A DNA stretch of 64,000 nucleotides from Pseudomonas mucidolens (GTDB lineage: Bacteria; Pseudomonadota; Gammaproteobacteria; Pseudomonadales; Pseudomonadaceae): positions 992,001 to 1,056,000 of the forward strand of contig NZ_LT629802.1 of assembly GCF_900106045.1 (NCBI RefSeq). The letters run 5' to 3'. The translations under genes and the position numbers were made by a program. The notes under the pieces were generated by a model. It saw nothing but the letters and a program-made list of their open reading frames with translations. It was not told the DNA's origin and ran no database searches. Each line of letters begins with the position of its first letter. The first letter of the stretch is position 1. Below are positions 13,363 through 29,367 of the stretch, one piece after another.

Positions 13363-14184
13363 TTACGTTATCTCTGGAAATATCTTTTTTTGCTCCTCTG
13401 AGCCAATTGCATGATAGCGGGCTTCTCCTGAGTTCTTGTCGAAATCAACAACGAATTTGACGCTCAGAGCGTCATTGGATGACGCACTAAGATCGCAAAT
13501 CAATACTCCGATCAAATCTAGGTTGAATTTTGATCTTCCAGGCAAGAAAGCCACGTTGAATTTTTCCGGTGACTGAACGGAACGGTAGCACCAAGCATCT
13601 TGTTCTGGATAGTTAAAATAGGTGTCCGCGATTGCACGAGTAATGGAGTAGCGCGCCTCTTCACCAGTCGGTACAACTCTTGAAAATTCTTCGTCTAAAA
13701 ACGAATAAAACAAATTTGATCTATGATCTTTCGGTAGCGTTGATCCGTTATAATCACCGAGAACCGCAACGTTTATTGGTCGGGACGACCTATAGACCAT
13801 AATTGCGACATGTGTGTGATCTCTTGCTCTGGCTTCATCAATTGCCAAGTTAGGATCGCCCGCACAGCAGTATAAAATGCTTTGGTTGATCGCGTTAAGT
13901 CGCCCTTGCACTTTAACTATATGCGGGGGCGGTTCCCAGGCATCCCCAACTTTTTGGATTGTTCGGGGTGGAGTAATAGTATCGTTCGACGGAATTGCCC
14001 TTGCGCGGAAAAAGGTTGTCCCTTGTTCGTAGGTTCTGGTTTCTGTGACATATGAGTACACATTTCCAAAGATTGAAGATACAGCGTTTATACAGTCCTT
14101 ATCGCTGATTCCGTTTTGCGCGAGAGTCCGGAAATCCAAAATGCGTTTTCTAATTTTATCTTCGTTAATGTCAGAAGAAAACAT
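13363..14184 (-). CDS. RES-domain protein (putative NAD-degrading toxin), no adjacent antitoxin
   Basis: 273-residue protein with a RES domain from about residue 55 onward. The three motif residues can be proposed as Arg60 (TFFRARAIP), Ser102 (NQSILYCC) and Glu117 (NLAIDEARA), within GRLNAINQSILYCC and GDPNLAIDEAR. RES toxins consume NAD+ and are normally paired with a Xre/DUF2384 antitoxin, but none is encoded next to this gene. The N-terminal 50 residues (DKIRKRILDFRTLAQNG) are helical and not part of the RES fold. The gene is AT-rich, suggesting horizontal origin. A stand-alone defence or stress role is inferred. Confidence 0.75.
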   Translation of the reverse strand: MFSSDINEDKIRKRILDFRTLAQNGISDKDCINAVSSIFGNVYSYVTETRTYEQGTTFFRARAIPSNDTITPPRTIQKVGDAWEPPPHIVKVQGRLNAINQSILYCCAGDPNLAIDEARARDHTHVAIMVYRSSRPINVAVLGDYNGSTLPKDHRSNLFYSFLDEEFSRVVPTGEEARYSITRAIADTYFNYPEQDAWCYRSVQSPEKFNVAFLPGRSKFNLDLIGVLICDLSASSNDALSVKFVVDFDKNSGEARYHAIGSEEQKKIFPEIT

Positions 14185-14885
14185 ATTGTTTATCCTTTAT
14201 TAGTATGTTTTATTAATATTTATCGAGTGTTGGAAAAAGTGTGTTGAGGTGGTTCGCGCGTTCTATATCGAAAAGCTACTTATTGCAATGAAATGTTTCA
14301 GCTTTCGCTTCTGGCCGTTATCTGCCTCATGTGAAGCAGTCACCCACAGAGCGTAGCCGGCTATTACCTCATAACAAGGGGGGCTGACGGCCTCGGAGGT
14401 ACAGAATTGGTACGAGAATAGCTGGAGGTTTCCGGAGGCCATGTTTTTAAAGGCTCCTGAGTTTAGTCGTTCCAATCCATCATCGGGGCGACGGAGAAGC
14501 GACGGGAGAGGGCTTGGGTTGATGCGGTGTGTGAGGGCATGAGGATCTGAGGTGACGAATGCGAAGGGAGGGCAGTTTAGCAGGAATGGGCTGCTGAGGA
14601 TGAGCAGAGCCAAATCCGTTGAGATTGTCGAAATTTAATAAAACTGTCCCGTTTTCTCCTTTCTCACCCTATTTGGCGGCATTTTGAACGCGTTATTTGG
14701 CGGATAGGAAATCGCAGAAACGGGGTGGATACCGGTCGGGCAGCTTTCGGATTGGTTGGCAATGAGGCGGCCGTCAGATGTCGCAAAAGTCCCCTGAATG
14801 TCACGGCTTTTGCGCCCAACTTTCGCCTGATTTTTCAGTGTCGGCGATCTGGCGGCAAATTCATGAGTTACGCGACAAACACGTC
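14185..14885. other. Gene-poor region before SnoaL-like gene
   Basis: No gene could be supported. Two short minus-strand frames (84 and 116 codons) have no recognisable domains. The right part (14766-14788) holds GGCGGCC...TGTCGCAAAA, the left arm of an inverted repeat whose right arm lies at 15395-15428 beyond the SnoaL-like gene. This suggests remnant recombination or transposon ends. Confidence 0.4.
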
Positions 14886-15338
14886 TCAAGTGATCTGATC
14901 TTCGATGGCGGTTTTATCGATGACGGAGAGCACATCGGCAATCTTGCCATCCTTTACCTCGTAAAACACATTCTCTGCGAAGGAAATGCGCCGACCGTTG
15001 ATCTTCAGGCCAAGGAAGTATCCTTTGGGTGAGCAATTGAACAATAGCCTCACCGCAATAAGCGGCGGGTCACACGCCAAACGATCGATGACGAAACGCA
15101 GATCGGGAATATCCTCGAAATCCTTGATCAGCATCGAGCGGTAGCCTGACAGCCCAAACGGACGGCCATTGTGTTTGACATCGTCGGCAACATACCGCCC
15201 TAGCGCATCCCAATCTTGGCGATTCAGGCAGTCTAGGTAGGCGCGATATAACGCTTGCAGCGTCATGCTTCCAGATATCATCAAATCAATCCCTTTGCCG
15301 TTGTGTGGGCCAATACCGAGCGGATTTTCCATCGTCAT
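14886..15338 (-). CDS. SnoaL-like / NTF2-fold ester cyclase family protein
   Basis: 150 residues with a SnoaL/ester-cyclase NTF2-like fold: MTLQALYRAYLDCLNRQDWDALGRYVADDVKHNGRPFGLSGYRSML, then FEDIPDLRFVIDRLACDPPLIAVRLLF and a C-terminal RISFAENVFYEVKDGKIADVLSVIDK. Such proteins bind small hydrophobic ligands or act in polyketide-type cyclisation or hydrolysis; the specific substrate is unknown. The ATG of MTLQALY at 15266 is an equally plausible start and matches family starts better. The gene lies inside an inverted-repeat pair, so it may travel as a small cassette. Confidence 0.8.
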   Translation of the reverse strand: MTMENPLGIGPHNGKGIDLMISGSMTLQALYRAYLDCLNRQDWDALGRYVADDVKHNGRPFGLSGYRSMLIKDFEDIPDLRFVIDRLACDPPLIAVRLLFNCSPKGYFLGLKINGRRISFAENVFYEVKDGKIADVLSVIDKTAIEDQIT

Positions 15339-15468
15339 CCGCTCTCTTTATTCGTCGCAAAACTCCCGATTATAACTACAGTTCTGCACATGAATTTTGC
15401 GACAGTATCAACAATGACGATGGCCGCCTGCAAGGTCCGGTTGCAGCAGCGATGAGCGTCGACCTCCG

Positions 15469-15891
15469 TTGCCCTTCAGTGCTGAACTGACTGAGACTGA
15501 TGAGTACACAGTCCAGGCCAAGGTGGTCAGCGATCACTTACACACTATCAAGCTGACGGTGAGGCGTGTAGTTTTGCCGGCGCTTGCGATCATCTCAGAA
15601 CACTGCGTTAAAGAGATCGATAGGGTGGAGTGGGCCAAGGCGTCGTCGCACGTGCCTCCAAATCGAGCGCAGATGATCGGGAAGGGGTTGTACTGGGGGT
15701 TCGCAGGGGACCTTGGTATAGCCGCTCATTTCCTGATTCCGCAGATCGAAGCGATCATCCGACACCGGATGAAGGAGGCAAGTCTCAACACTTCCACGTC
15801 CAGTGCCGACGGTATCGTTAACGAAAATGGACTGAGCATCTGGATGGCATACGTCAGGCGCGAACTGCGACAACAAATAGTCGATAGATGA
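15469..15891 (+). pseudogene. C-terminal fragment of a DUF4209-family protein
   Basis: The 140-codon frame contains PPNRAQMIGKGLYWGFAGDLGIAAHFLIPQIEAIIRHRMKEA and a following GIVNENGLSIWM, the core of DUF4209 (GL..GF.GD...A.H.L.PQ.E..IR). Full DUF4209 proteins are several hundred residues long, so this is a truncated piece with its N-terminal two-thirds missing. It was probably broken when flanking repeats recombined. Function of the family is unknown to me. Whether the fragment is translated is uncertain. Confidence 0.6.
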
Positions 15892-16020
15892 CGACCTACT
15901 CGCTGAGCGAAAGGGTGTGTTCAACGAATGCGCAACAGATGAAGACAGTGGGCTGCATCCGTGATCGCTGCATAGGTCGATAGGCAGAAACCGGCCATAA
16001 GGGGACACTTGAATTGAGGT

Positions 16021-16053
16021 TGACCGTTTGGTGCGCGTGGCGCCAAACGGTCA
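16021..16053. terminator. Strong hairpin downstream of the DSD1-family gene
   Basis: TGACCGTTTGG and CCAAACGGTCA form a perfect 11-bp stem with an 11-base loop that can pair further. It lies about 60 bases past the stop of the minus-strand PLP enzyme gene. No clear T tract follows on either strand, so it may end transcription weakly or be a remnant repeat. Confidence 0.4.
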
Positions 16054-16112
16054 CTGTTTCCTTTCGCGATTCACGTGCCAGTTCAGAGCAGCATCTATTT
16101 GGGAAATGTTCC

Positions 16113-17249
16113 CTACCAACCGTTCAGGCGAGGCCAGAGACTGATCTCACCATTTTCGTCTAGGGCCTCGTATGCTTGGTATTGAGCGCCTGTGGCACAT
16201 GCATGGTTGGGCAGAATACGCAGACGGGTTCCAATAGGAAACTGCTGCTCGATTTCTACCTGTTGGCCTTCCTCGAAAGACGCCACACCGTGCTCCTGGT
16301 TGGCTGAGCGCAACTGAAGCCCGTCGATGAGCTTGCCCTCAGTATCGCAAACCAGGCCGTAGCCGAAATCGCATTGCTGGGACTGCGTGCCCCGGTCGCG
16401 ACTCATTGCCATCCAGCCGGAATCCGTGATGATCCAGCCCTTCTCTGGCTGATGGCCGATCACGGTGGTGAGGACGCTCAAGGCGAGTTCGTCCAGCTGG
16501 CATACGCCAACATTGTGCATGACCAGATCGAAGAAAACGTACACGCCGGCACGGAGCTCGGTGACGCCGTCGAGGTGAACGGCGGACAATGCGGTGGGCG
16601 TTGAGCCGACACTCACTTCCTGGCACGGCAAGCCCGCAGACCGAATGGCCTCAGCAGCCATCCCGCATTCTGAACGTTCAATTTCCGCAATTTCCTGCAG
16701 CGCCTCAAGGGTGTTCAGCTTGTAGCTTTCGCCGGCGTGAGTCATCACGCCTTTGAGCACAGCACCACCTTCATGAAGGATTCTGGCGATCTCGATCAGC
16801 ACAGGATCGTCACTACGAACACCCGAGCGGTGATGGTCACTGTCGATTTCGATGAAAACCTCAAACCGCTCGCCATGGGTGCGGCAAAAGTCGGTGATCG
16901 CTCTCGCGCCCGCAACGCTATCAGTGACAATCGTCAGGGAACATCCGGCGCGGCGCAGTGCCAGTGCTTGGTTGAGCTTGGTGGGGGCCATTGCTACGGC
17001 GTAGAGAATGTCGGTGATGCCTTGGGCAAAAAAGGCTTGAGCTTCCTTGAGTGTGGAAACCGTTATGCCTTGGGCTCCAGCCTTCACCTGAGCTGCTACC
17101 ACCTGCTCGCATTTGGTGGTTTTTACATGGGGTCGTAGCCTTACTCCCTGGCGATTAGCCTGGTTCTGCATGCGTTGAATGTTGCGCTGCATGCGGCTTA
17201 CATCCACCACGGCTACGGGGGTATCGAGGGAATCAATGGAGGAAGTCAT
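16113..17249 (-). CDS. DSD1-family PLP enzyme: beta-hydroxyaspartate aldolase (BhcC) or D-3-hydroxyaspartate/D-serine dehydratase
   Basis: 378-residue fold-type III PLP enzyme of the D-threonine aldolase/D-serine dehydratase family. Lys43 in RPHVKTTK is the probable Schiff-base lysine, and His349 and Cys351 in PNHACAT are the family's metal-binding pair. Other landmarks are FIEIDSDHHRSGV, THAGESY and VSVGSTPT. Members cleave beta-hydroxyaspartate to glycine and glyoxylate (BhcC), or dehydrate D-threo-3-hydroxyaspartate or D-serine. It is divergent from a LysR regulator and near dehydratase, iminosuccinate-reductase-like and RidA genes, which favours a hydroxyaspartate substrate. The precise reaction and stereochemistry cannot be read from sequence. 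Confidence 0.85.
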   Translation of the reverse strand: MTSSIDSLDTPVAVVDVSRMQRNIQRMQNQANRQGVRLRPHVKTTKCEQVVAAQVKAGAQGITVSTLKEAQAFFAQGITDILYAVAMAPTKLNQALALRRAGCSLTIVTDSVAGARAITDFCRTHGERFEVFIEIDSDHHRSGVRSDDPVLIEIARILHEGGAVLKGVMTHAGESYKLNTLEALQEIAEIERSECGMAAEAIRSAGLPCQEVSVGSTPTALSAVHLDGVTELRAGVYVFFDLVMHNVGVCQLDELALSVLTTVIGHQPEKGWIITDSGWMAMSRDRGTQSQQCDFGYGLVCDTEGKLIDGLQLRSANQEHGVASFEEGQQVEIEQQFPIGTRLRILPNHACATGAQYQAYEALDENGEISLWPRLNGW

Positions 17250-17345
17250 TAGCTAGATCTCGTGGGTGTCTGTGTGTTTGCAACTCTACGCAGTACGGTA
17301 TATTTTTGGTTAACGGTCACTTAAACGAATGTTAAGAACTACTTA

Positions 17346-18254
17346 ATGATTACGTTCTCCGATCTAGAACTGGTTACGGCAATTTCCGTTTCCGGCTCAT
17401 TGAGCGAGGCTGCTCGCAAGCTGAGAGTCACCACGGCAGCTCTCTCAATGAGACTGCGAAAACTCGAAGCGGAATTGGGCATGAAGCTTGCCAGCAGAGA
17501 CTCCAGGCGCTTGGCATTGACCGAGGATGGAGAGCGCATGGCCGAGGAAGGACGACGGTTGCTGCAGGCGCTGGAGGAGTTGTCAGACTCAATGGTGGCT
17601 GACGACGAGCGCCTTCAGGGAGTGATCCACCTATCTGCACCGTTCGGCTTTGGGCGGTTGCGTTTAGCTCCCTTGCTGGCACGGTTTGCAAAGCTTCACC
17701 CTAAACTAAGAATCGAGCTCGATTTGCGAGAAACCCCTTGGCCAGATCGGAGCAATTGCGATGCGGTAATCCACATTGGCTCCATCAACGACAGCTCATG
17801 GACTGCTCAAGTGCTGGCATCCAATGAACGATGGTTGTGTGCAAGCCCGTTCTATCTGAAAGAGCATGGGGCCCCAATAGCGCCTGAAGACCTGACAGCT
17901 CATCGGTGTATTTGTATTCGCGAGAATGACGAACACGCGACGTACTGGCACTTGCGCAGGGACAACGAGAGCAAGTCTCTGCGAATCTTTCCGAGCATGG
18001 TCAGCAACGATGGTGGAGTGGCGCGCAGATGGGCGGAGCAGGATCTTGGTTTGGTTCTGCGTTCGCAATGGGACGTGGTTGATTCGATTGCCCAGGGTAG
18101 CCTGATTCGCGTGCTGGCCGACTGGGAGTTCGAGACCGCCCCGATTCTTCTGCTGATACCGACCAGAAAACACAGGTCCCGAAAAGTACAGGCTCTTGCT
18201 TCATTCTTGAACGAATCATTCAAAACGAAAGGCACTGAGAAAAGCCGGTCATAG
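17346..18254 (+). CDS. LysR-family transcriptional regulator of the hydroxyaspartate-type cluster
   Basis: 302-residue LysR regulator. The N-terminal winged HTH reads DLELVTAISVSGSLSEAARKLRVTTAALSMRLRKLEAELGMKLASRDSRRLALTEDGER (residues about 4-62). The substrate-binding domain begins near residue 90 (GVIHLSAPFGFGRLRLAPLLARF). It is divergent from the DSD1-family gene with about 95 bases between starts, the usual layout for a LysR factor controlling its neighbour. It probably activates that gene in response to a pathway amino acid. Confidence 0.9.
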   Translation: MITFSDLELVTAISVSGSLSEAARKLRVTTAALSMRLRKLEAELGMKLASRDSRRLALTEDGERMAEEGRRLLQALEELSDSMVADDERLQGVIHLSAPFGFGRLRLAPLLARFAKLHPKLRIELDLRETPWPDRSNCDAVIHIGSINDSSWTAQVLASNERWLCASPFYLKEHGAPIAPEDLTAHRCICIRENDEHATYWHLRRDNESKSLRIFPSMVSNDGGVARRWAEQDLGLVLRSQWDVVDSIAQGSLIRVLADWEFETAPILLLIPTRKHRSRKVQALASFLNESFKTKGTEKSRS

Positions 18255-18306
18255 GCTGTTATCGTCCTCTTATTGAAACCTTTTACTTTTGCTGGACATC
18301 TTCACG

Positions 18307-18933
18307 ATGAAGAAAACGACCCCCGAGCAACAAGCGCTGATCAGTCAGCTTGAGCAAATTGCAGAAGGCTTGAGCCAGACCTTCAGCCCATTTTGTGAGG
18401 TCGTATTGCACGATCTGCGAGATCCCGAGCACGCAATACTGGCCATTCACAACAATCTTTCTGGCAGGGAGATCGGACATCCTGCTACCGAGTTGGGGCT
18501 TGCCCGGATTGCTGATCCAGCCTATCCCCAGATTATTGCCAATTATCCCAATCAATTCAAAGATGGCCGGCAGGCCAAAAGCACCTCGATTGGCATTAAG
18601 GATTCCACTGGACGGTACGTGGCCGCGCTCTGCATGAACGTTGATCTCACCCTGTTCAGGGGACTGCAGGGCATGCTGGATCAATTCGGATCTTTCAGTG
18701 GCGATCGTCCGCATGAATCGCTCGAATCGAGCGGTGCAGAATCAATTCGCGCGCGCATTGATCAGTTTGCTGCACGGCTATCCACGTCTCCCCGTGCGCT
18801 GAAGGCTGGTGATCGGCGAGTTTTACTTCAAGAGTTGAAGGAATCTGGCCTCCTGGATATCAGAAAGGCCATGGAAACGGTGGCTTCACACCTTGGTGTA
18901 TCACGTGCAACGGTGTACAGCGATACGAGGTGA
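18307..18933 (+). CDS. YheO/DauR-type transcriptional regulator (PAS_6 plus HTH_22)
   Basis: 208-residue regulator with an N-terminal YheO-like PAS domain (LEQIAEGLSQTFSPFCEVVLHDLRDPEHAILAIHNNLSGREIGHPATELG; later KSTSIGIKDSTGRYVAALCMNVDL) and a C-terminal HTH (KESGLLDIRKAMETVASHLGVSRATVYSDTR). DauR, a known member, represses D-arginine catabolism, so an amino-acid-responsive role fits. It lies head-to-tail after the LysR gene and convergent with the RraA-like gene. The ATG of MKKTTPEQQA is preferred over an upstream TTG. Confidence 0.88.
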   Translation: MKKTTPEQQALISQLEQIAEGLSQTFSPFCEVVLHDLRDPEHAILAIHNNLSGREIGHPATELGLARIADPAYPQIIANYPNQFKDGRQAKSTSIGIKDSTGRYVAALCMNVDLTLFRGLQGMLDQFGSFSGDRPHESLESSGAESIRARIDQFAARLSTSPRALKAGDRRVLLQELKESGLLDIRKAMETVASHLGVSRATVYSDTR

Positions 18934-18939
18934 CCTCGG

Positions 18940-19638
18940 CTACACGGGACAGCCTTTGGCCCTGAGCATCGCATTGAACCGATCAGGGTCAAGCGTATCT
19001 TCTTCAATTCCCTTGAGGATCAACGCTTCCCGATCCAGCAACTGGCGGCAGCGTTCATAAACTCTTGTGAGCTGAGCCTGAGAGATGGCAACCACGCCAT
19101 CGGAATCGCCTACCACTAGGTCACCCGGATTAACGACCAACCCTGCACACGACACTGGTACATTGATTTCACCGGCACCGTCCGTGCTTGGGCCGCGGTG
19201 GACGCAGCCGAGGGCGAAAATCGGCATCTTGCCGTCCAGCCAGTCATCATGGTCACGAAGCATACCGTTTACGACGATCCCGCCAATCCCGGCTTTGAGA
19301 GCCATTGCCCGCATGATCCCGCCAATGACGGCTCTGGTCTGGTCACCACTACCGTCCACCACCAGGATGTCGCCAGGGCGCGCCATCTGTATAGCTTTAA
19401 GCGTCAACAAATTATCGCCGGGGCGCACCCGCACGGTAATCGCTGTTCCGCACATGTGGCCGCGACCGTGAAATGGACGAAGACCTAACCCGCCGACGTT
19501 GCGACCCAAGCAATCACTGATGATTGCGCTGGGGACTTGGCTGAACGCAGTCAGCCATTTTTCAGGGATGATGGCGGGTGACGGATTGATATGGAAGCCC
19601 GTAGGCCAAGCTTCATTCGACGCGACATTGAGCATCAT
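18940..19638 (-). CDS. RraA-like protein: 4-hydroxy-4-methyl-2-oxoglutarate aldolase / oxaloacetate decarboxylase type
   Basis: 232-residue RraA-like protein. The core VPSAIISDCLGRNVGGLGLRPFHGRGHMCGTAITVRVRPGDNLLTLKAIQMARPGDILVVDGSGDQTRAVIGGIMRAMA and the later GIVVNGMLRD and GDLVVGDSDGVVAIS match the HMG aldolase group, whose members also decarboxylate oxaloacetate. With dehydratase and RidA neighbours producing iminosuccinate or oxaloacetate, conversion of oxaloacetate to pyruvate is an attractive role, but this is inference. A strong AGGAG ribosome site precedes a double ATG; the first is chosen. RidA is encoded 43 bases upstream in the same direction. Confidence 0.85.
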   Translation of the reverse strand: MMLNVASNEAWPTGFHINPSPAIIPEKWLTAFSQVPSAIISDCLGRNVGGLGLRPFHGRGHMCGTAITVRVRPGDNLLTLKAIQMARPGDILVVDGSGDQTRAVIGGIMRAMALKAGIGGIVVNGMLRDHDDWLDGKMPIFALGCVHRGPSTDGAGEINVPVSCAGLVVNPGDLVVGDSDGVVAISQAQLTRVYERCRQLLDREALILKGIEEDTLDPDRFNAMLRAKGCPV

Positions 19639-19681
19639 CGATCTCCTCTGTAATGCCAGAAATGGGCGTACCTTCAACGCT

Positions 19682-20071
19682 TCAAGCCGCGTTGGTCACA
19701 ATACGTGCGACAGCCTCAATTTCCACCAGATAGCCATGGTGCAGCTCTGGCACCGGTACCACTGCGCGAGCTGGCCGGTGGCTGCCCAGCATTTCGGAGT
19801 AGATCCGGTCGAAGGCTGGCCAGTGCTTCACGCCTGCGACGTACACAGTGACTTTGACCAAGTCGGAGGGAGTGCAACCTGCGGCATGCAGAATGGCCAA
19901 CAGATTGTTCAGTGCAACTTGTGCCTGTTCGGTGAACGACGCCTCAATGTTGTGAGTGCCGTCCGGACTAACGGGGAGCTGGCCCGAAATGTACAGCGAG
20001 CCTTGGTGAATAACCGCTTGCGAGTAGTGACCGGCAGGTTGGGAAGCCGCATCGGTGCTAACAATTTTCAT
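19682..20071 (-). CDS. RidA/YjgF/YER057c family imine/enamine deaminase
   Basis: 129-residue RidA-family protein that hydrolyses reactive enamine/imine intermediates released by PLP dehydratases, giving keto acids and ammonia. Typical blocks are HYSQAVIHQGSLYISGQLPVSPDG, EQAQVALNNLLAILHAAGCTPSDLVKVTVYVAG and GSHRPARAVVPVPELHHGYLVEIEAVA; the conserved Arg in RPARAVV is present. It is placed between RraA-like and transporter genes in the minus-strand block with the dehydratase, suggesting it acts on iminosuccinate or a related imine. MKIVSTDAASQ is the natural start. Confidence 0.92.
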   Translation of the reverse strand: MKIVSTDAASQPAGHYSQAVIHQGSLYISGQLPVSPDGTHNIEASFTEQAQVALNNLLAILHAAGCTPSDLVKVTVYVAGVKHWPAFDRIYSEMLGSHRPARAVVPVPELHHGYLVEIEAVARIVTNAA

Positions 20072-20137
20072 AAGTGACCTTGTATAGGGTGGAGCCGACG
20101 CTGCAGGCGATGCCCAGGGCGTCAACTCTTGGATGTA

Positions 20138-20371
20138 TCAATGAGTGTTTGTGAAAGCTGCTTGAGCCTTGCTAGGTTCAGTGACGCCGCTGGCGATAAG
20201 TAGTTGTGCCAGAATCCCGAGTCCCGAAACAGCGGCCATCAACTGCTGAGGCCCAATGGCGCCGGCATTGTAGGCACTCGTGCCACGGTTATCGGCGGAA
20301 CCTGCGATAGTTCCAACCGTTGCAAGTAACGAGACACGTGGCAATTCCACTTGTTGATTATTCGAACTCAT
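20138..20371 (-). CDS. Small protein of unknown function next to the symporter gene
   Basis: 77-residue protein, MSSNNQQVELPRVSLL..., with a mildly hydrophobic C-terminal half (QQLMAAVSGLGILAQLLIASG) that might form a helix or associate with membranes. An AGGAAA ribosome site stands 6 bases before the ATG, which supports translation. No family is recognised. It lies between RidA and the symporter, and immediately upstream is a possible broken 35-codon membrane peptide frame. A transporter accessory role is possible but unproven. Confidence 0.55.
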   Translation of the reverse strand: MSSNNQQVELPRVSLLATVGTIAGSADNRGTSAYNAGAIGPQQLMAAVSGLGILAQLLIASGVTEPSKAQAAFTNTH

Positions 20372-20521
20372 GGTTGTTTCCTAGGCGAGCGTAAACGGAA
20401 CACCAACGGTTAAGCCTGCCAAGATCGAGAGCATAAAACCCGCCAAAAGGTATGGCTGCTGTTGAAGTTTAGGGGTTTGACAGTCATTTTTTTCTTAATT
20501 GTTGTTAGAGCTATTTGTTGA

Positions 20522-21793
20522 TTAAACGGCTTGAGGAATTTTTTCAGCATCGATTGCTGTTTCAACTTCTTCGATTTCATTACCGTGTCGCCCAATGACC
20601 GCCGTTGCGACACCGCAGCCGAAAACGTTGGTGGCGGTGCGTCCCATGTCCAGGATTGGGTCGACGGCGAGGATGAGAAGCAGGCCGGCGTCCGGAAGGC
20701 CGATCATTGGCAGTCCCGCAGCCAGGACGACCAGAGAGCCTCGCGCTACACCTGCAGTCCCTTTGCTGATAACCAGCAGGGTCAACAGCACCATGATCTG
20801 GTGCGAGAGGGTCATTTCGATGTTGTACGCTTGGGCGATGAACATCACGATGAACGCTTGGTACATCATCGAGCCGTCCAGGTTGAATGAGTAACCCAAC
20901 GGCAGGACGAAGCTGCTTACGCGCTTGTTGGCACCAAACTTGTCCATGGCGGCAATGGTTTTCGGATACGCGGCTTCGCTGCTCGCCGTGGAGAAGGCGA
21001 TCAGAATTGGCTCACGCATATGCTTGAACAGGTCTTTGATGCGTGGGCCGAGGGCCATGTAGCCGGCAAGTGTGATCAACGACCAGAGCAGTGCCAGACC
21101 CAGGAAATACTGTCCAACCATCTTGCCAAAGGTCACGACCATTTCTAGACCATGCACGGTGATGGTGGCGGCGATGGCTGCAAATACAGCCAGCGGAGCC
21201 ACATACATCACATAGTCGGTGACCCTGAACATGACATTGGCCAGTTCTTCGAGCATGTCCACGATGATGGACTTGCCTTTGCCCTTGACGAACGCCAGTG
21301 CGCAGCCGAAGAACAGTGAGAACACAACGATCTGCAGCACTTCGTTCGTACCCATTGCCTCAATAATGCTTCGAGGGAATACATGGGTGAGGAAGATCGG
21401 CAGGCTAAAGCCGGAAGTGTTCAAGCCCGTGTTCACGGCTTCACTGCTCACAGTCAGATTCAAACCGACACCTGGCTGGAAAATATTGGCGAAGAGCAAA
21501 CCGATGGATAGGGACCCTAGGGAGGCAATCATGAACCAGGTGATGGCTTTAAAGCCGACACGGCCCATCGAACCGTTCCCTGACATGCTGGCAACGCCGG
21601 TCACCAAGGTGGCAAGCACCAAGGGTGCGATAACCATTTTGATCAGACGTAAAAACACGTCAGTGACCAGATTCAGGTATCCGGAAATTTCTTTTGCGGC
21701 CGCAGCATCCAGCTGACTGTGGAGCGTGCCTCCTAGGACTACGCCGAAAATCATCGCGATAACTATCGCTTTAACGAGAAGGCGGCTTTTCAT
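20522..21793 (-). CDS. Dicarboxylate/amino acid:cation symporter (DctA/GltP family)
   Basis: 423-residue SLC1-type secondary transporter. Recognisable features are the N-terminal LLVKAIVIAMIFGVVLGG, IKMVIAPLVLATLVTGVASM, the Ser-rich FSTASSEAAYPKTI hairpin (HP1), VSSFVLPLGYSFNLDGSMMYQAFIVMFIAQ (with the NxDG motif) and the HP2 region VISKGTAGVARGSLVVLAA. It should import dicarboxylates or acidic amino acids with H+ or Na+ across the inner membrane; in this cluster, 3-hydroxyaspartate or aspartate is a sensible substrate. An AGAGG site precedes the ATG. It is co-directional with the dehydratase gene upstream. Confidence 0.9.
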   Translation of the reverse strand: MKSRLLVKAIVIAMIFGVVLGGTLHSQLDAAAAKEISGYLNLVTDVFLRLIKMVIAPLVLATLVTGVASMSGNGSMGRVGFKAITWFMIASLGSLSIGLLFANIFQPGVGLNLTVSSEAVNTGLNTSGFSLPIFLTHVFPRSIIEAMGTNEVLQIVVFSLFFGCALAFVKGKGKSIIVDMLEELANVMFRVTDYVMYVAPLAVFAAIAATITVHGLEMVVTFGKMVGQYFLGLALLWSLITLAGYMALGPRIKDLFKHMREPILIAFSTASSEAAYPKTIAAMDKFGANKRVSSFVLPLGYSFNLDGSMMYQAFIVMFIAQAYNIEMTLSHQIMVLLTLLVISKGTAGVARGSLVVLAAGLPMIGLPDAGLLLILAVDPILDMGRTATNVFGCGVATAVIGRHGNEIEEVETAIDAEKIPQAV

Positions 21794-21930
21794 GTGCACC
21801 TCTTTTTATAGTGGCCTAATTAATGGCCATATTGTTTGGGCTAAATGTGTGTTCATTAGATTTTGGCAAGACGGTGCCGTCAGGCGCTGTTGAACATCTG
21901 ATTTTTTTCAGTAGCTAAAGCTAGCTTTCC

Positions 21931-22896
21931 TTAGGGCTGGAGAAATTTTCCAAGCGTGTCGATATCAATATTACCGCCTGTAATAATGACGCCGACTCGT
22001 CTGCCTTGGAGCTCATCCTTGAACTTTCTTACTGCGGCAAGGCCCAGGCATCCAGTGGGCTCGACCACAATCTTCATGCGCTGAACAAAGAACTTCATTG
22101 CAGATATCAGTTCTTCGTCAGTGACAGTTACAACTCGGTTCACTCCATTCAAAATAATTGGAAAGGTGTAATTACCAAGATGCTGCGTTTGGGCGCCATC
22201 AGCGATGGTGTCAGGGGTTTCGATGTGAACTATCTCACCTGAATTGAACGATTGCTGTCCGTCGTTACCTGCTTCAGGCTCAACGCCAATCAGAGTGCAC
22301 TCTGGTGCCAGTGCACGCGTCGCCAAAGTGGTTCCCGATAGCATGCCGCCGCCACCTAGGCCTACAAACAAAGCATCCAACTGACCGACGCTTTCAAACA
22401 GTTCCTTGGCGGCAGTACCTTGGCCAGACAGAACGTCTGGATGATCGTAGGACGGGATCAGCGTCATACCATGCTTGGCGGCCAGCGCCCGACCGATAGC
22501 CTCGCGGTCTTCGGTATAACGGTCGTAGAACACAACCTCAGCGCCATAGCCTTTGGTAGCCGCGACTTTGGCTGCAGGAGCATCAGTTGGCATAACAATG
22601 GTGGCAGGGATCTCCAACAGTTTGGCCGCCAAAGCGATGCCTTGTGCGTGGTTCCCCGAAGAGAACGCTACAACACCGCCTCGACGTTGCTCTGCGCTGA
22701 ATTTAGCGAGCGAGTTGTATGCCCCTCGGAATTTGAAAGAGCCAGTACGTTGGTAGTTTTCACATTTGAAAAATACCTTCGCACCGACTTCCTCATCGAT
22801 CGTACGAGAGGTCAGAACAGGCGTGACGTTGGCTACTCCCTTAAGTCGCGTAGCCGCGTCGACTACGTCTTGATAAGTTGGCAGAGTGATTTGCAT
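21931..22896 (-). CDS. L-threo-3-hydroxyaspartate ammonia-lyase / beta-hydroxyaspartate dehydratase-like (BhcB type)
   Basis: 321-residue fold-type II PLP enzyme of the serine/threonine dehydratase family lacking a C-terminal ACT regulatory domain. The PLP lysine is Lys55 in GSFKFRGA, the phosphate-binding loop is VGLGGGGMLSG, and AFSSGNHAQGIALAAKLL is the conserved asparagine loop. Single-domain enzymes with this sequence pattern include serine racemase, threo-3-hydroxyaspartate dehydratase and BhcB. They convert hydroxyaspartate to iminosuccinate, which hydrolyses to oxaloacetate and ammonia. The adjacent OCD-family gene, 20 bases upstream, supports the hydroxyaspartate reading over catabolic threonine dehydratase. 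Confidence 0.85.
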   Translation of the reverse strand: MQITLPTYQDVVDAATRLKGVANVTPVLTSRTIDEEVGAKVFFKCENYQRTGSFKFRGAYNSLAKFSAEQRRGGVVAFSSGNHAQGIALAAKLLEIPATIVMPTDAPAAKVAATKGYGAEVVFYDRYTEDREAIGRALAAKHGMTLIPSYDHPDVLSGQGTAAKELFESVGQLDALFVGLGGGGMLSGTTLATRALAPECTLIGVEPEAGNDGQQSFNSGEIVHIETPDTIADGAQTQHLGNYTFPIILNGVNRVVTVTDEELISAMKFFVQRMKIVVEPTGCLGLAAVRKFKDELQGRRVGVIITGGNIDIDTLGKFLQP

Positions 22897-22916
22897 AGCA
22901 AAATGTCCTCAAAGAT

Positions 22917-23888
22917 TTACCACGGCCAAGAAATATCGTGGCCAATACCTTCGATACTGGCTTGCTTGAACAGAAGCTGAGCAACTGTCAGGTCTTGCAG
23001 CGCCAATCCCGTCATGTCGAAGAGGGTGATGTCATTGGCACTACGGATGAATTCAACTTGCCCTGTCAGCAGGTCACCGATTTCCATTACTGGTGAAGCC
23101 GGCACCCATTGCGTTTCGCCAAGCTGACGAGCTTGGGTTTTATCGTCGACAAAGACTTTGGCCTTGGGCAGAAGCCCTTCCGGTGCTTCCCGTTTGCCCT
23201 TGGTGTCTGCACCCACGCAGTTGAAATGCGTACCAGGTTGGACGGCTTCCAGGTCAAACAGTACCTGTCTTCCGGGCGTTGCTGTGATGACTACATCACT
23301 TTGCGATACGGCATCGTTTGCCGATGCGCTGTGGCGCACGGAGACACGTTCTGAAAACTGCGATTCAAATTGCGCATTCGGTATGCCATCCGCCGTGAGG
23401 TAGGTGACATGCTTGATGCCGGACATCACGCGAAGCGCGTAATCCACTTGAATGCTGGCCTGTACGCCAGTGCCGAAAACGCAGAGTTGCGAGCTGTCTT
23501 GACGAGCAAGCATCTCCAGACCCAAAGCCCCGGCAGCACCGGTTCGGAGTGTCGTAATAGCGTTTCCGTCAATGACGCACAGCGGCCGCCCAGTCGCAGG
23601 ATCGATCAGCAGAATGGTCGCTTGATGAGGCTCACTTTGCAGGGCGCGGTTGGTGGGCCAGAAACCGGCTGCTTTGAACCCGAGCACGCCCTGATTAGCG
23701 ATACCACCGGATTTGATTCCAAAGATGCCACCCGTGCTAAGCGCTTCGCGAACCACAGGGAAGACTTGGCCATCTCCTGCGCTATGCAGGTAGAAGGCTT
23801 CGCGTACGGCGAAGAGGATCTGCTCGGGTAGCACTAGGGCATTGACACTATCCCTATCCAGCAGTTTTAGCATTTCGATCTTGGACAT
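22917..23888 (-). CDS. Ornithine cyclodeaminase-family reductase, probable iminosuccinate reductase (BhcD type)
   Basis: 323-residue OCD/mu-crystallin family protein. The Rossmann motif is LCVFGTGVQASIQVDYAL (residues about 130-147). Other family landmarks are GGIFGIKSGGI, ATILLIDPATGRPLCVIDGNAITTLRTGAAGALG, DVVITATPG and THFNCVGADTKGKRE. BhcD of the beta-hydroxyaspartate cycle belongs to this family and reduces iminosuccinate to L-aspartate with NAD(P)H. It is first in the leftward block, directly followed by the BhcB-like gene, a pairing that strongly suggests the same chemistry. Ornithine cyclodeaminase or delta1-piperideine-2-carboxylate reductase are alternatives. Confidence 0.82.
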   Translation of the reverse strand: MSKIEMLKLLDRDSVNALVLPEQILFAVREAFYLHSAGDGQVFPVVREALSTGGIFGIKSGGIANQGVLGFKAAGFWPTNRALQSEPHQATILLIDPATGRPLCVIDGNAITTLRTGAAGALGLEMLARQDSSQLCVFGTGVQASIQVDYALRVMSGIKHVTYLTADGIPNAQFESQFSERVSVRHSASANDAVSQSDVVITATPGRQVLFDLEAVQPGTHFNCVGADTKGKREAPEGLLPKAKVFVDDKTQARQLGETQWVPASPVMEIGDLLTGQVEFIRSANDITLFDMTGLALQDLTVAQLLFKQASIEGIGHDISWPW

Positions 23889-24255
23889 TTTACGCGCCTG
23901 GCACAATAGAGCTTCCAGACACAATATCCAAAACTAGACAATCTGTAAAGTCGAGGCGCACCCGTCTGTCATGAAAGGTTGCCCACTCAGCTAAAATTAG
24001 GACAGCCTGGAAAGATGTCTTGTGGCACAGGTAGCGCTTTGCGCGCTACGGATCGATCACGGTGTTCGTCTAGTAGATTGGCCAAGCCCGCCGGATTGAT
24101 GTGTGGTTCGAATGTCCGCTTGTGGCCCAGGCTGTGTAAAAACGTTTTTCAGTGCGACAGGTACTCAAAACCAGACTAGAAATCGCGTTTCTACGCAAAT
24201 CCACATCTGCTGATGTGCCGATTTAAGTCAGGGAACAGTGTGTTGCGGCTCAAGC
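23889..24255. other. Promoter region of the OCD-family operon plus IS debris
   Basis: The first part is the upstream region of the leftward reductase/dehydratase block. No gene is supported. Around 24131 GGCTGTGTAAAAACGTTTTT resembles the terminal inverted repeat of IS elements in Pseudomonas, in line with the transposase remnant that follows. No clear promoter could be assigned. Confidence 0.35.
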
Positions 24256-24581
24256 TCAATCAGTAGCCTCCCGGGTTGCGCTTACCGCCGTGGAGTCAAT
24301 CATCCAGGTCTCCAAATCGATTAACCCTTGCTCGTTCAACCTGATGTGAAGTCGCTTAAGCATCTGCGCGAATGTCCCGCGTGCGCCAGTCACGAAAGCG
24401 CTGACACCGTCGACCATGGGCCGAAGCGCGCAGGCATGTCGCGCCAAGCAGCTCCCGAGCAGAGCACGCCGTTGAGCATCAGTCGATCATCTGCTCGTGG
24501 GCGTCCGTTACGGAGGGGTTCACTGAATATGTCTGCACCCAAATCCCAGGCTGCGTCCGGGAGTTCGTACCGTTTGGCCAT
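24256..24581 (-). pseudogene. IS5-family transposase N-terminal remnant
   Basis: Two minus-strand frames together rebuild the N-terminus of an IS5/IS427-type transposase. The first reads MAKRYELPDAAWDLGADIFSEPLRNGRPRADDRLMLNGVLCSGAAWRDMPARFGPWSTV, with a gap relative to the usual NGVLWVLCSGAAW. After a frameshift near 24420 the second reads GTFAQMLKRLHIRLNEQGLIDLETWMIDSTAV. The DDE catalytic core beyond this point is missing, so the element is dead. It marks past insertion between the two metabolic clusters. Confidence 0.85.
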
Positions 24582-24727
24582 CGTGGGCTCCTGCCTTTGA
24601 TGGATGCGGACTTTACTGAGTCCCGACGCTTGCTGGGTTCAAAGGAGGTTCAGATGACTTCGTACAGAGCCTAAGGCTACTATTAGACAGAAAGTTATCG
24701 ACCGACTGATAATTTTGTAGTAAAAAA

Positions 24728-25246
24728 TCAATTGGCATCCGGAAGCGGGAGTTCAACTTCGATGCGCTGGTCATTTTTATCATAAGCCCATCGCTCTAAG
24801 TCTAATAGCCACAGTCTTTGTACCGTAAGTACATAAAAGCTTCGTTTACCGATTTTTTTGAAATCGGATAAAGGTAACGCCCATTGCGCCCTGGCAAGTT
24901 CGTCGGGAAAATTGGTTCGATAGTATTCTTCATAAATGACCTCTATTTCATCATCCGGTACCGATCGTGCAAGACCGGAAAGCTGTATGCCGTCAAGTCC
25001 GACTGGTGGAGCCGAGGCGCCAAAATCCGTCCTAAATATAGAGCCAGATATATTTGGATCGCGGTCGATATTTTTTGAGTGCAGCGAATCAGACATTGAG
25101 TACCATAAAAGGCTTTCGGTTTTATGTCGATATACGTAGTTCACGGTAGACGCCCAAGGAGAACCTTGTGCGGATGCTGTTGCCAATGTTATAAATCGGG
25201 TGGTGCTTAACAGCCTTCTGCACCTTTCTGTTATGGAAGGCATCAT
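24728..25246 (-). CDS. Pyridoxamine 5'-phosphate oxidase-fold flavoprotein
   Basis: 172-residue PNPOx-like split-barrel protein: ITERCRRLLSTTRFITLATASAQGSPWASTVNYVYRHKTESLLWYSMSDSLHSKNIDRDPNISGSIF, then DGIQLSGLARSVPDDEIEVIYEEYYRTNFPDE. Such proteins bind FMN, F420 or haem and catalyse small-molecule oxidations or reductions. It is the last gene of a tight four-gene operon; its ATG-ATG start overlaps the upstream stop. The gene is AT-rich relative to the backbone. Substrate unknown; a tailoring role in a small-molecule pathway is inferred. Confidence 0.8.
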   Translation of the reverse strand: MMPSITERCRRLLSTTRFITLATASAQGSPWASTVNYVYRHKTESLLWYSMSDSLHSKNIDRDPNISGSIFRTDFGASAPPVGLDGIQLSGLARSVPDDEIEVIYEEYYRTNFPDELARAQWALPLSDFKKIGKRSFYVLTVQRLWLLDLERWAYDKNDQRIEVELPLPDAN

Positions 25247-25587
25247 GATTTCTGCCCTCTTGAAACTGGGGCGTCGTTTAATAAGCGGGCTTCCATAATA
25301 TCCCACCATTGATCTTGCTCTATACGCTTTTTCTCCCAGCTTGCAATATGGGATCGCTCTGAAACTGCCTTTCGGTATGCGCCCCATGCAGCCTCATCTT
25401 CAAAAGAGATCCAGTGTTCAATTGAATGCACATCTGGAGCGATTGTCTGTACATACCACCGGGGTTCTAAAGCCATTTCCAGCCCATCATAAAACCATGC
25501 CTCTCTTTCGCGAACCCAGGTCCAGAATTCCGCATGATTGGATCTGGCTTTTGCGCTGGGACGAAGCAGATATATAAGATGTAGCAT
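25243..25587 (-). CDS. Small alpha-beta-barrel-like protein of unknown function
   Basis: 114 residues with alternating strands and helices: MLHLIYLLRPSAKARSNHAEFWTWVREREAWFYDG, then RWYVQTIAPDVHSIEHWISFEDEAAWGAYRKAVSE. This pattern (a start strand, helix with HAEFW, then an HxIEHW-type strand followed by an aromatic-rich helix) resembles the dimeric alpha-beta-barrel fold of antibiotic-biosynthesis monooxygenase or NIPSNAP proteins. It is wedged between the GNAT gene and the PNPOx gene with which it overlaps. The fold guess is moderate; the reaction is unknown. Confidence 0.6.
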   Translation of the reverse strand: MLHLIYLLRPSAKARSNHAEFWTWVREREAWFYDGLEMALEPRWYVQTIAPDVHSIEHWISFEDEAAWGAYRKAVSERSHIASWEKKRIEQDQWWDIMEARLLNDAPVSRGQKS

Positions 25588-25603
25588 ATTAAAGCTCCTT
25601 TAT

Positions 25604-26770
25604 TTAATTTGTTATAGTTTTCCAGTCTGCGCTTAAGTTAGACCTGAAGCGACGTTCATAGTCTTCGTAAAAAAAACGATTGTGGTTTTCTACTGCCTCT
25701 CTCCCAAGGGGACTTTTGCAAGGAATAACCACGACTGCTAAAGGCTCAATTACGCTTCCGCGCTTAGCTTTTGCTTCTAATGCGGAGGTAGAGAGACAGC
25801 ATTTTCTGAACCCGTGAAATGCCGCGTACTCCAGTGAAAGATAATAGGTTAGTACAAAATAACGAAAATCATTATCTGCCAAGGTGTAGTCGGATCCGAA
25901 GTATCGAGCATGTAGCGAATGGCCAAATTTATAAAATACAGTTACAGCTGATACTTTGTTCTCTCGCTCGGCAAGCACAGCGATGGCGCTATGAATAACT
26001 CCAGACTTTCTTTGTCCTTGAAGATTTCTTATCATCCACTGCCTATCTTGAGTTGATCCATATTTGCTTCGATTGTTAGTTATTAATGTGGCGATACTTT
26101 CATCAAGGTCACTCGTCAGAGGGAGCCACCGAGTCCTATTCCCATATTTTTCAAATGCTGCTATTTCCGCCTTGCTACGTACGCGCTCATGAGAACCCCA
26201 CGAGCCGAGCATCTCTGCTAGCCCCCCTCTAGGTACAGGCATCGTTGCCTCTGCGGAATGCAGTAGTGCGTGAGTCTCAGGTACGTATCTCACGATTTCC
26301 AGAGCCCGTTTCAAGGGCATGTATGGGATAAGGAAACCGGAAAGATTTCGTTCTCCTGCATACGTTTGAGCAGAATAAAAGAAGCGACGAAGTGCATTTC
26401 GACGGCTAACGCCTTGAGTGCAAACGACCTCATTATGAGTGCTGCGACGTGCGCCGCCCCACAAAAATTTATTACCCCACTGTTCAGACATGCTTGGAAA
26501 CAGTGCCTGCGTGCTGAACATTGGCCCTTCTGGTTCTCCAGCCCATAGGGCACAACCGGCTAAGAGTCCAGAGGAACCATAGACTGTCAAAAAGTCCGTG
26601 GGACCCTGAGCATCTTCCAAACTTGCAAGCCACCCATACGAATTATAAAAATTATCATCCGCTGTTAGCCCGTCCCACTCATGTCGGTCAATATATGGAA
26701 TAGAGTGAGAAATATCCGATTTCAACTCACAGTTATGAGTCTTTAGGTCGGCATGAGTAAAGTCGCCCAT
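25604..26770 (-). CDS. GNAT-superfamily acyltransferase (BioF2/peptidogalycan-like)
   Basis: 388-residue protein of the large GNAT type. The C-terminal half carries the family pattern SAVTVFYKFGHSLHARYFGSDYTLADNDFRYFVLTYYLSLEYAAFHGFRKCCLSTSALEAKAKRGSVIEPL, comparable to BioF2-like or FemAB-related acyltransferases with 'YY..I.YA...G......G....K..RG...EPL'. Such enzymes transfer acyl or aminoacyl groups in envelope or natural-product synthesis. It starts one base upstream of the preceding methyltransferase's stop region (essentially no gap), so it is co-transcribed. Substrate unknown. Confidence 0.75.
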   Translation of the reverse strand: MGDFTHADLKTHNCELKSDISHSIPYIDRHEWDGLTADDNFYNSYGWLASLEDAQGPTDFLTVYGSSGLLAGCALWAGEPEGPMFSTQALFPSMSEQWGNKFLWGGARRSTHNEVVCTQGVSRRNALRRFFYSAQTYAGERNLSGFLIPYMPLKRALEIVRYVPETHALLHSAEATMPVPRGGLAEMLGSWGSHERVRSKAEIAAFEKYGNRTRWLPLTSDLDESIATLITNNRSKYGSTQDRQWMIRNLQGQRKSGVIHSAIAVLAERENKVSAVTVFYKFGHSLHARYFGSDYTLADNDFRYFVLTYYLSLEYAAFHGFRKCCLSTSALEAKAKRGSVIEPLAVVVIPCKSPLGREAVENHNRFFYEDYERRFRSNLSADWKTITN

Positions 26771-26771
26771 G

Positions 26772-27512
26772 CTAGCCCCCCAGTGTGCAATCTAAGATCG
26801 CTGCGTGAGGGGAGTTGATGTAGTTTTTCCAGTATTTCTGTCCTAAAAACTCAAATCCTGCTCTGTCGACCCAATGCTTTCTCCAGTGTATGCTACTAAA
26901 TCCAGATCGTTTTAAAGAAGCTTCTAGGGTCGCAGCAGTCCAATAATAGGCTTCTACCTGAGTGTCGTATGGCGGCATGCATAAATCTAAAGTTACAGTA
27001 GATGCGTCGCTCTTTTGACTCTCATGGCCAGGTATAAGTCGAAAACCATAGTCTTCATAGTAATTTGCGCGCATGCAGAAATCAGGATGGATGGGTAACG
27101 TTATTAACCTTCCTCCTGGCTTAAGCACGGACGCCATACCTTGGCACATAGAATCGAGCGATTGAACGTTTGCTGCATAAGGAAGCACATATATAGATAT
27201 AGCTAAATCAAATTTACTTAGAAGGCTTGAGGTTATTTCGGAGTTGAATTCAATCCCTAGCTGCTCTTTTTCCTCTCTCCGACTTGCATAATCAAGCATG
27301 CCGGCTGACTGGTCGTAACCGACTACTTTTTTAGCGCCTTGTTTTTTTAGTATTCGGGAGTAGAGACCGTTACCGCAACCAAAGTCAAAGATACTTAGAT
27401 CTGACACATCACCCACAACATCTAAAACAGAAGGGATTTCACAGTGCTTTCTAAAAGGCCAGTTGGCCATATTTTCGTACAGAGCTGCGAGTTCATCAAA
27501 TTGACTAGGCAT
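26772..27512 (-). CDS. Class I SAM-dependent methyltransferase
   Basis: 246-residue methyltransferase. Motif I is LSIFDFGCGNGLYSRILKKQGAKKVVGYDQSAGML (about residues 38-72), with motif-IV-like FDLAISIYVLPYA and motif-VI-like VLKPGGRLITLP. The C-terminal EAYYWTAATLEASLKRSGFSSIHWRK resembles small-molecule methyltransferases. It is the first gene of the leftward AT-rich operon and probably defines its promoter, divergent from the NanE-like gene. Substrate unknown; not recognisable as UbiE, BioC or an RNA methylase. Confidence 0.85.
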   Translation of the reverse strand: MPSQFDELAALYENMANWPFRKHCEIPSVLDVVGDVSDLSIFDFGCGNGLYSRILKKQGAKKVVGYDQSAGMLDYASRREEKEQLGIEFNSEITSSLLSKFDLAISIYVLPYAANVQSLDSMCQGMASVLKPGGRLITLPIHPDFCMRANYYEDYGFRLIPGHESQKSDASTVTLDLCMPPYDTQVEAYYWTAATLEASLKRSGFSSIHWRKHWVDRAGFEFLGQKYWKNYINSPHAAILDCTLGG

Positions 27513-27839
27513 ATATAACTCCTTTTAAAAGCATAGTCCTTAATAAGTGCTCAACGAGGCCGCGTACTCCTTGCTCACTACTGTCGCTGGATATTCTAGG
27601 TAGGTTTCGTCTTTTTGCAAAAAAATAAAAATATTTTTACATGGCTCTCAGTCGTCGCCCTGAACCGTAATATAGGCTTTAGACGTGCTCATAATGCAGC
27701 TGCTTATATTCCAAATTAATCTATGCCGTGTAATAGAGTAAGCTAGAGTGCGTTGATCAAGCACCCATATGCTTGAGTCGATAAATCGTTCAGCAAGGTG
27801 GCGATTGCAGGAGAAGCCTTTTCAGGGAGAAACCTAGGT
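27513..27839. promoter_or_regulatory. Divergent promoter region of the methyltransferase operon and NanE-like gene
   Basis: AT-rich 327-base spacer between divergent starts. It contains A/T runs near 27618-27638 but no recognisable operator or sigma factor site that I would defend. The arrangement suggests joint control of the leftward four-gene operon and the rightward epimerase. An AGGGAGAA ribosome site stands just before the rightward ATG. Confidence 0.45.
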
Positions 27840-28547
27840 ATGTTTACTGGTTCGTTATTCGACACGCTAATGGGCGGCCTCATCGTTTCATGTCAAGCAT
27901 TGGAACATGAGCCTTTACACGGCTCTACTCATATGAGCGCTATGGCGTTAGCGGCAGCTCAGGCAGGTGCGGTGGGTATTATAGCGAATGGCATACACGA
28001 TATTTCTGCAATAAAAAAGCTTGTTACGTTGCCTATAATCGGCGTCATGACCGCTGGTTACTCAGAATCATCTATCCAGTTGACACCTACTATTGTAGAA
28101 ATAACGGCCTTGGCGAGAGAGGCCCCAGATATGATCGGGCTTGACGCCACTGATCGCAGACGTCCCAACGGAGAATCCCTTGAGGCCTTTGTTGAGATGA
28201 TACGCTCTCGATATCCTAATCTATTGCTGATGGCCGAAGTTGCAACGGTGGAGGAAGCTATTTATGTGCAATCGTTAAAGTTTGATTGCTTATCTACGGC
28301 AGCCTATGGTGCTACCAAAAACACAGCAGGAAAGAGCCTGCGTCAGAATGATTTTTCTCATTTTACAGCCATACGACGGGTCATTTCCCAGTGCCCTTTG
28401 GTTGCTGAAGGTGGAATAGGCACCCCTGAACACGCTCGTCGCGTCCTCCAATTAGGAGCGGATATAGTCGTGGTGGGAAGCGCGATAACCCGCCCGCAGG
28501 TTATTACTGAGTCTTTTGTTAACGCAATGGTTGGATACCGTAGCTAG
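27840..28547 (+). CDS. nanE: NanE-like N-acetylmannosamine-6-phosphate 2-epimerase family protein
   Basis: 235-residue TIM-barrel protein of the NanE family: LMGGLIVSCQALEHEPLHGSTHMSAMALAAAQAGAVGIIANG, LPIIGVMTAGYSESSIQLTPT, DMIGLDATDRRRPNG, LLMAEVATVEEA, CPLVAEGGIGTPEHARRVLQLGADIVVVGSAITRP. Catalytic Lys in NanE lies in an IG(x)KR(x)Y-type motif; here the corresponding VMTAGYS segment lacks Lys-Arg, so activity may differ. No sialic acid genes are nearby; instead it is divergent from a methyltransferase operon, hinting at a recruited isomerase. The start is set by the AGGGAGAA site. Confidence 0.75.
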   Translation: MFTGSLFDTLMGGLIVSCQALEHEPLHGSTHMSAMALAAAQAGAVGIIANGIHDISAIKKLVTLPIIGVMTAGYSESSIQLTPTIVEITALAREAPDMIGLDATDRRRPNGESLEAFVEMIRSRYPNLLLMAEVATVEEAIYVQSLKFDCLSTAAYGATKNTAGKSLRQNDFSHFTAIRRVISQCPLVAEGGIGTPEHARRVLQLGADIVVVGSAITRPQVITESFVNAMVGYRS

Positions 28548-28697
28548 GGAAACTCCGACCAACTTGCTTCAGGCGTTCGGCAAAAAACAAAAACTTACGC
28601 ATTATTCGGCTCTGAACTACCCGTACACACTGTCTTGTGGCGCTTTTCTATCCGCACCTCCGCGCTAAATGCGTACCTCGTCCGCACCGGTAGGCTG

Positions 28698-29307: not shown

Positions 29308-29325
29308 TGAATTTTCGTCACCAAA

Positions 29326-29349: not shown

Positions 29350-29367
29350 GATGATGAGTTAGATGAA

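Follow-up and report, generated by a model that had tools for sequence, protein, structure and literature searches.

Hydroxyaspartate and hydroxyasparagine are constituents of siderophores and lipopeptides. Described systems that act on hydroxyaspartate include the D-threo-3-hydroxyaspartate dehydratase of Delftia sp. HT23, the threo-3-hydroxy-L-aspartate ammonia-lyases, reportedly represented by enzymes of Pseudomonas T62 and N99, and the beta-hydroxyaspartate cycle of Paracoccus (BhcABCD). In the hydroxyectoine (EutB/EutC) and D-arginine (DauA/DauB/DauR) systems, an imine-forming enzyme is coupled to an imine reductase of the OCD family. Here we describe a gene cluster of Pseudomonas mucidolens at positions 16113–23888 of a 64,000-nucleotide stretch (assembly GCF_900106045.1, contig NZ_LT629802.1, positions 992,001 to 1,056,000; hereafter the window), part of a 5.85 Mb genome in a single contig (G000). 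Judged by the relationships of its enzymes, the cluster is probably a 3-hydroxyaspartate catabolic operon. No description of this operon was found among the titles and abstract starts listed by searches of open-licence PMC papers on hydroxyaspartate and hydroxyasparagine.

The cluster comprises eight intact genes and one remnant, given below by window position and strand.

22917–23888, minus strand: OCD-family protein (PF02423), proposed iminosuccinate reductase, 323 residues from an internal ATG, the length of many relatives
21931–22896, minus strand: fold-type II pyridoxal phosphate (PLP) dehydratase of the PALP family, threo-3-hydroxy-L-aspartate ammonia-lyase type by NF005454 and tree ("L-type")
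20522–21799, minus strand: SDF-family symporter (PF00375), probably for acidic amino acids, its best solved relative being an aspartate transporter
20141–20449, minus strand: remnant of a type II asparaginase gene, both ends only, located by tblastn with the intact protein of a relative (locus L116)
19682–20125, minus strand: RidA-type imine deaminase (TIGR00004), real start probably near 20071
18940–19677, minus strand: RraA-like aldolase/decarboxylase (PF03737, NF004850), start uncertain
18289–18933, plus strand: YheO-type regulator (PAS_6 and HTH_22 domain matches)
17346–18254, plus strand: LysR-family regulator (domain matches), divergent from the D-type dehydratase
16113–17249, minus strand: DSD1-family protein (Ala_racemase_N/D-ser_dehydrat), the D-type dehydratase by its 3wqc match and tree

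The genes named in an earlier, sequence-only reading of this DNA are present where it had placed them, and their families are supported by domain and profile matches. That reading was largely right in outline: it proposed that hydroxyaspartate is catabolised by a route other than the beta-hydroxyaspartate cycle, which the results below support, and it erred in assigning one enzyme to the BhcC family.

As far as their sequences tell, the cluster encodes two dehydratases, and not a dehydratase plus an aldolase. The two DEHYDRATASES, a DSD1-family protein (D-type) and a PALP protein (L-type), have unrelated folds. The D-type protein scored 526 bits against the Delftia HT23 dehydratase (3wqc), to which it is 65% identical across 374 residues, 350 bits against the uncharacterised structure 3llx, 208 bits against D-serine dehydratase and 94 bits against a BhcC structure. 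It keeps the RPHVKT and PNHACATG segments, which are metal and PLP segments of the Delftia enzyme; 3wqg and 4pb3 carry an alteration in PNHACATG. A tree of 33 rows places the D-type protein with the Delftia dehydratase and away from five BhcC rows, while a relative at control locus L150 groups with 3llx (both dehydratase trees used 30 chosen loci). Its score against the BhcC model, 119 bits, is below the cut-off of 690; among its profile matches, no NCBIfam model bears the name of D-threo-3-hydroxyaspartate dehydratase. A BhcC-type aldolase at 16113–17249, implied when the earlier reading equated the DSD1 family with that of BhcC, was therefore rejected.

The L-type protein passes the threo-3-hydroxy-L-aspartate ammonia-lyase model NF005454 (556 bits, cut-off 452), falls below the BhcB cut-off (326 bits, cut-off 550) and passes none of the threonine or serine models among the 25 models shown. 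It is 64% identical to the Schizosaccharomyces pombe protein 1v71 and separate from BhcB in a tree of 18 rows. The NF005454 cut-off was also passed by all four further cluster copies scanned (L107, L112, L005 and L060) and by the L150 copy. One result weighs against the assignment to hydroxyaspartate: the S. pombe serine racemase falls within the L-type clade of the 18-row tree, so the L-type enzyme could also act on serine.

The hydroxyaspartate isomers are probably divided between the two dehydratases by their C3 centre. The Delftia dehydratase is said to follow a 3R rule, and the N99 enzyme reportedly acts on 3S isomers. It counts against this division that the L-erythro isomer, taken here as 2S,3R, is labelled 2S,3S in PMC8071972, which has the Delftia dehydratase degrade both D-threo- and L-erythro-hydroxyaspartate.

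The OCD-family protein has BhcD as its best NCBIfam match. Its relatives form a single clade of 26 (support 100/100) near 17 BhcD rows in a tree of 58 rows, from which identical rows and rows shorter than 300 residues had been removed. In the substrate domain, the clade carries the signature F(P/S)xVRE ... FG-IKSG ... KxAGFWPxN ... HQAT, and BhcD carries FxVxRE ... YG-FKxG ... KxGG(F/Y)WPxN ... HQS, as defined here from the alignment. The signature is present in 26 of 26 OCD-clade rows and 17 of 17 BhcD rows; as a whole it is absent from the other 15 rows, including alanine dehydrogenase, ornithine cyclodeaminase and mu-crystallin, with partial forms in L136 and L138. We lean towards iminosuccinate reductase as the likeliest function of the protein, which, together with the L-type dehydratase, probably works like BhcD and BhcB. 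Several results pull the other way. The BhcD match reaches 216 bits with a cut-off of 500, the branches joining the clade to BhcD have low support (94/75 and 85/29), phmmer scores alanine dehydrogenase and BhcD almost equally (145 and 143 bits), and the predicted fold (mean predicted local distance difference test score, pLDDT, of 90.7) has alanine dehydrogenase as its first match and BhcD as its third and does not tell the two apart. The archaeal alanine dehydrogenase model is itself missed (184 bits, cut-off 409). The earlier label of a BhcD-like reductase is supported by the substrate-domain signature and not by the BhcD model, and the protein has a clade of its own. A role as an NAD-dependent racemase, by analogy with PbfF, was rejected since PbfF derives from another family, the D-alpha-hydroxyacid dehydrogenases, according to PMC12366243.

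Together with the serine racemase in the L-type clade and the 208-bit relationship of the D-type protein to D-serine dehydratase, the fold match to alanine dehydrogenase would suit a cluster for serine or threonine breakdown, in which D- and L-serine (or threonine) dehydratases act beside a RidA that clears aminoacrylate and an OCD protein resembling alanine dehydrogenase. We consider this very unlikely, as the L-type protein passes the hydroxyaspartate cut-off and none of the threonine or serine models among the 25 shown, the D-type protein is much closer to the hydroxyaspartate enzyme, the carrier is of the acidic type and the OCD protein has the BhcD-like signature.

The best solved relative of the SDF symporter is an aspartate transporter (265 bits), with which its LDMGRT..N segment aligns; in work on GltPh, the Asp and Arg of that segment reportedly have binding roles. 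The symporter is below the cut-offs of both the DctA and GltP models. RidA passes TIGR00004 (107.1 bits, cut-off 106.25) with a match beginning at residue 19. The RraA-like protein passes NF004850, a model named "hypothetical protein" (243 bits, cut-off 231), scores 86 bits against an aldolase with oxaloacetate decarboxylase activity and carries the pattern G-X20-R-D-X2-D, which we take to be one of the active RraA-type motifs. Most RraA-type homologues have one of two motifs, according to PMC5065237.

In the pathway that we propose, the SDF symporter would import hydroxyaspartate, and the two dehydratases, by analogy with their relatives, would convert different isomers to iminosuccinate, a single achiral product. 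L-aspartate would arise from iminosuccinate through reduction by the OCD enzyme, and oxaloacetate and ammonia through its hydrolysis, by RidA or spontaneously. The RraA-like enzyme may then decarboxylate oxaloacetate to pyruvate; this is the weakest step, because the gene is rare in relatives (near the D-type dehydratase in only two of 80 loci). Relatives with an intact type II asparaginase would first convert hydroxyasparagine to hydroxyaspartate.

The genes group together beyond chance. Association was counted by tblastn within 9 kb of the D-type gene in the best 80 of 262 loci with a D-type relative, 17 loci being incomplete; gene calling in neighbour loci still miscalls some genes. Within this range we found LysR in 57 loci, RidA in 52, the YheO-type regulator in 14, OCD in 11, the L-type dehydratase in 10 and SDF in five. 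RidA or OCD was present in 61 of the 80, and all 10 loci with an L-type dehydratase also hold the YheO-type regulator. TctC receptors, the MlrC-type peptidase of L039 and L058 and the ABC transporter of L005 and L008 are further neighbours; these differ from locus to locus and were omitted from the model. The M81 (MlrC-type) peptidase lies near the D-type gene together with a TctC receptor at L039 8343–9959 and L058 12748–14289.

The OCD clade occurs in five of 298 Pseudomonas genomes and two of 398 phylum-sample genomes (the window's genome included in both), and in 12 of 299 genomes of family f11. Wide flanks were fetched for 16 OCD loci, from the four further Pseudomonas genomes and from every one of the 12 in f11. 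Nine hold a D-type and nine an L-type dehydratase, 13 hold either and 13 the YheO-type regulator, and every one of the 16 holds a dehydratase or that regulator. A D-type dehydratase, and no L-type, accompanies the reductase in L003, L105 and four Polaromonas loci. In L111, L116, L117 and L118 the reductase has an L-type dehydratase as its companion, with no D-type in the flank that was fetched. Its retention with either dehydratase alone fits action on a common achiral product. The distribution also holds results that speak against the proposed pathway: L104, L106 and L113 have the OCD gene and the YheO-type regulator with neither dehydratase, and only three of the 46 Pseudomonas genomes with a D-type dehydratase (46 of 298) have the OCD clade. 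Two of the five Pseudomonas genomes with the OCD clade are without a D-type gene.

A further point against comes from control OCD-family genes, 12 of 14 of which (L150 included) adjoin a PALP protein, so that an OCD gene beside a dehydratase is a common and unspecific arrangement. Loci L151–L154 and L156–L162 hold such genes, outside the cluster's clade. Five control PALP proteins were scanned (L150, L151, L153, L158 and L161), and a single one, from L150, reached the hydroxyaspartate cut-off, with 597 bits; the specific feature is the kind of dehydratase beside the OCD gene. At L150 a YheO-type regulator, an L-type dehydratase (68%), an OCD protein of a different lineage (34%) and a relative of the D-type dehydratase (47%) follow one another in a row, and the presence of another OCD lineage in such a cluster counts in favour of the proposed pathway. 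Pairing a dehydratase with an imine reductase may be a general route to dehydroxylation.

In six BhcD control loci, the window proteins detected BhcB- and BhcC-like neighbours in five, the sixth ending at a contig end. This, and the fact that the cluster's enzymes come from the three superfamilies of BhcB, BhcC and BhcD, would be expected of a beta-hydroxyaspartate cycle, divergent or incomplete, that assimilates glyoxylate. Such a cycle is nevertheless highly improbable here and was rejected: all three enzymes lie outside the Bhc clades and under the Bhc cut-offs, the BhcC counterpart is a dehydratase relative, and no BhcA aspartate-glyoxylate aminotransferase is above cut-off in the genome (best match 72.7 bits, cut-off 650), as the earlier reading had stated for the cluster.

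An asparaginase is an element of the operon beyond those recognised earlier. In five Pseudomonas loci (L001, L002, L004, L116 and L118) we found ASPARAGINASE, an intact frame of ~380 residues between SDF and RidA, the N-terminus of which appears secreted as judged by eye without a signal-peptide program. With 391 bits, the L116 protein is above the type II asparaginase cut-off of 314, and a 40% identical asparaginase lies directly downstream of the D-type dehydratase in L107 (374 bits) and L108, whose two genomes belong to a single genus of family f11. The window remnant corresponds to residues 18–100 (82%) and 356–380 (88%) of the L116 protein, and L117 likewise has fragments only. A second asparaginase relative (40%) is encoded elsewhere in the window's genome (G000:C1:1125598-1126638).

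These frames suggest beta-hydroxyasparagine as a further feedstock where the asparaginase is intact, with plain asparagine as the alternative substrate; the earlier reading had named siderophores as a possible natural source of hydroxyaspartate. We propose hydroxyasparagine as an entry substrate because an asparaginase stands in the operon, and because PMC8071972 describes both the conversion of urinary beta-hydroxyasparagine to beta-hydroxyaspartate by E. coli asparaginase 1 and the degradation of hydroxyaspartate by the Delftia enzyme; it also places both compounds in epidermal growth factor (EGF)-like protein domains and in urine. Two matches above cut-off to the aspartyl/asparaginyl hydroxylase family PF05118 were observed in the window's genome (G000:C1:3406229-3406690 and G000:C1:2398532-2398996) and none in 14 control genomes. 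They are a possible source of the bacterium's own hydroxylated residues, or may instead be lipid A hydroxylases.

Taken furthest, the operon might constitute an unreported and complete salvage of beta-hydroxyasparagine and all four beta-hydroxyaspartate stereoisomers, with an exported asparaginase, an acidic carrier, two dehydratases divided by C3 and a new clade of iminosuccinate reductases all leading to L-aspartate; we put this forward tentatively, as the full version is doubtful. If true, the salvage would be a net dehydroxylation and deracemisation, its operon asparaginase step being broken in the window's genome. A conserved operon would explain what the purified hydroxyaspartate dehydratases do in nature. 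It also predicts a new clade of iminosuccinate reductases and is open to direct growth tests on defined isomers.

The cluster looks like a movable unit. Its D-type gene is separated from the other minus-strand genes by the two plus-strand regulators, and has its best named relatives in Pseudomonas, the one in P. citri being 94% identical. In a DNA comparison with P. citri (L001), similarity spans 16104–23992 at ~91%, split in two at the asparaginase remnant, and ends on both sides of the cluster within the 21 kb fetched; a 120-base tRNA match stands apart. Similarity to L116 covers window positions 18180–24114 and to L117 18096–24031, so the D-type dehydratase and most of LysR are absent at that place; the genome of L116 (G124) has a D-type relative on another contig. 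Flanking genes labelled SnoaL, PPOX and GNAT were near the D-type dehydratase in none of the 80 loci. Across window positions 10–30 kb the GC content falls from ~0.60 to 0.45–0.55, as it does again across 34–40 kb. A plasmid collection searched with 14000–25600 gave no match.

A tRNA-Asn gene lies far from the cluster at window 59182–59257, with a P. citri counterpart at L001 13331–13450, ~2 kb from the cluster there; its sequence is possibly an insertion site. Past the cluster, at 24728–31898, are genes for a PPOX-type protein, a sub-threshold FemAB-like match (GNAT-labelled), a methyltransferase, a NanE-type epimerase, a Mn-catalase and an MFS carrier. The lower-GC part also holds, at 34197–39347 on the minus strand, a 1716-residue frame with ToxA_N, leucine-rich repeats and an NEL-type E3 ligase domain.

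A patchy, movable cluster could also serve to remove hydroxyaspartates as toxic amino acid analogues, which would need the same enzymes, and a yeast relative reportedly confers hydroxyaspartate resistance. We regard detoxification as unlikely, since a dedicated carrier and an asparaginase in the operon of relatives suit feeding better.

The D-type protein resembles the Delftia HT23 dehydratase in identity, clade and conserved segments; the latter is known as a purified enzyme, whereas the D-type protein is one of two dehydratases in its cluster. The L-type protein resembles threo-3-hydroxy-L-aspartate ammonia-lyase in passing its model, but is assigned by sequence and shares its clade with the S. 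pombe serine racemase. EutB/EutC and DauA/DauB differ in their substrates, and the EutB and EutC models are under cut-off here; DauR is presumably of the same regulator family as the YheO-type regulator. With the beta-hydroxyaspartate cycle the cluster, as proposed here, has in common the dehydration to iminosuccinate and a subsequent reduction step, for which both use OCD-family enzymes that share a signature. The cluster differs in being without BhcC, with no BhcA above cut-off and three enzymes outside the Bhc clades, and by these sequence relationships is not a member of that cycle. Genes like bhcB, bhcC and bhcD occurring together need not signal the beta-hydroxyaspartate cycle.

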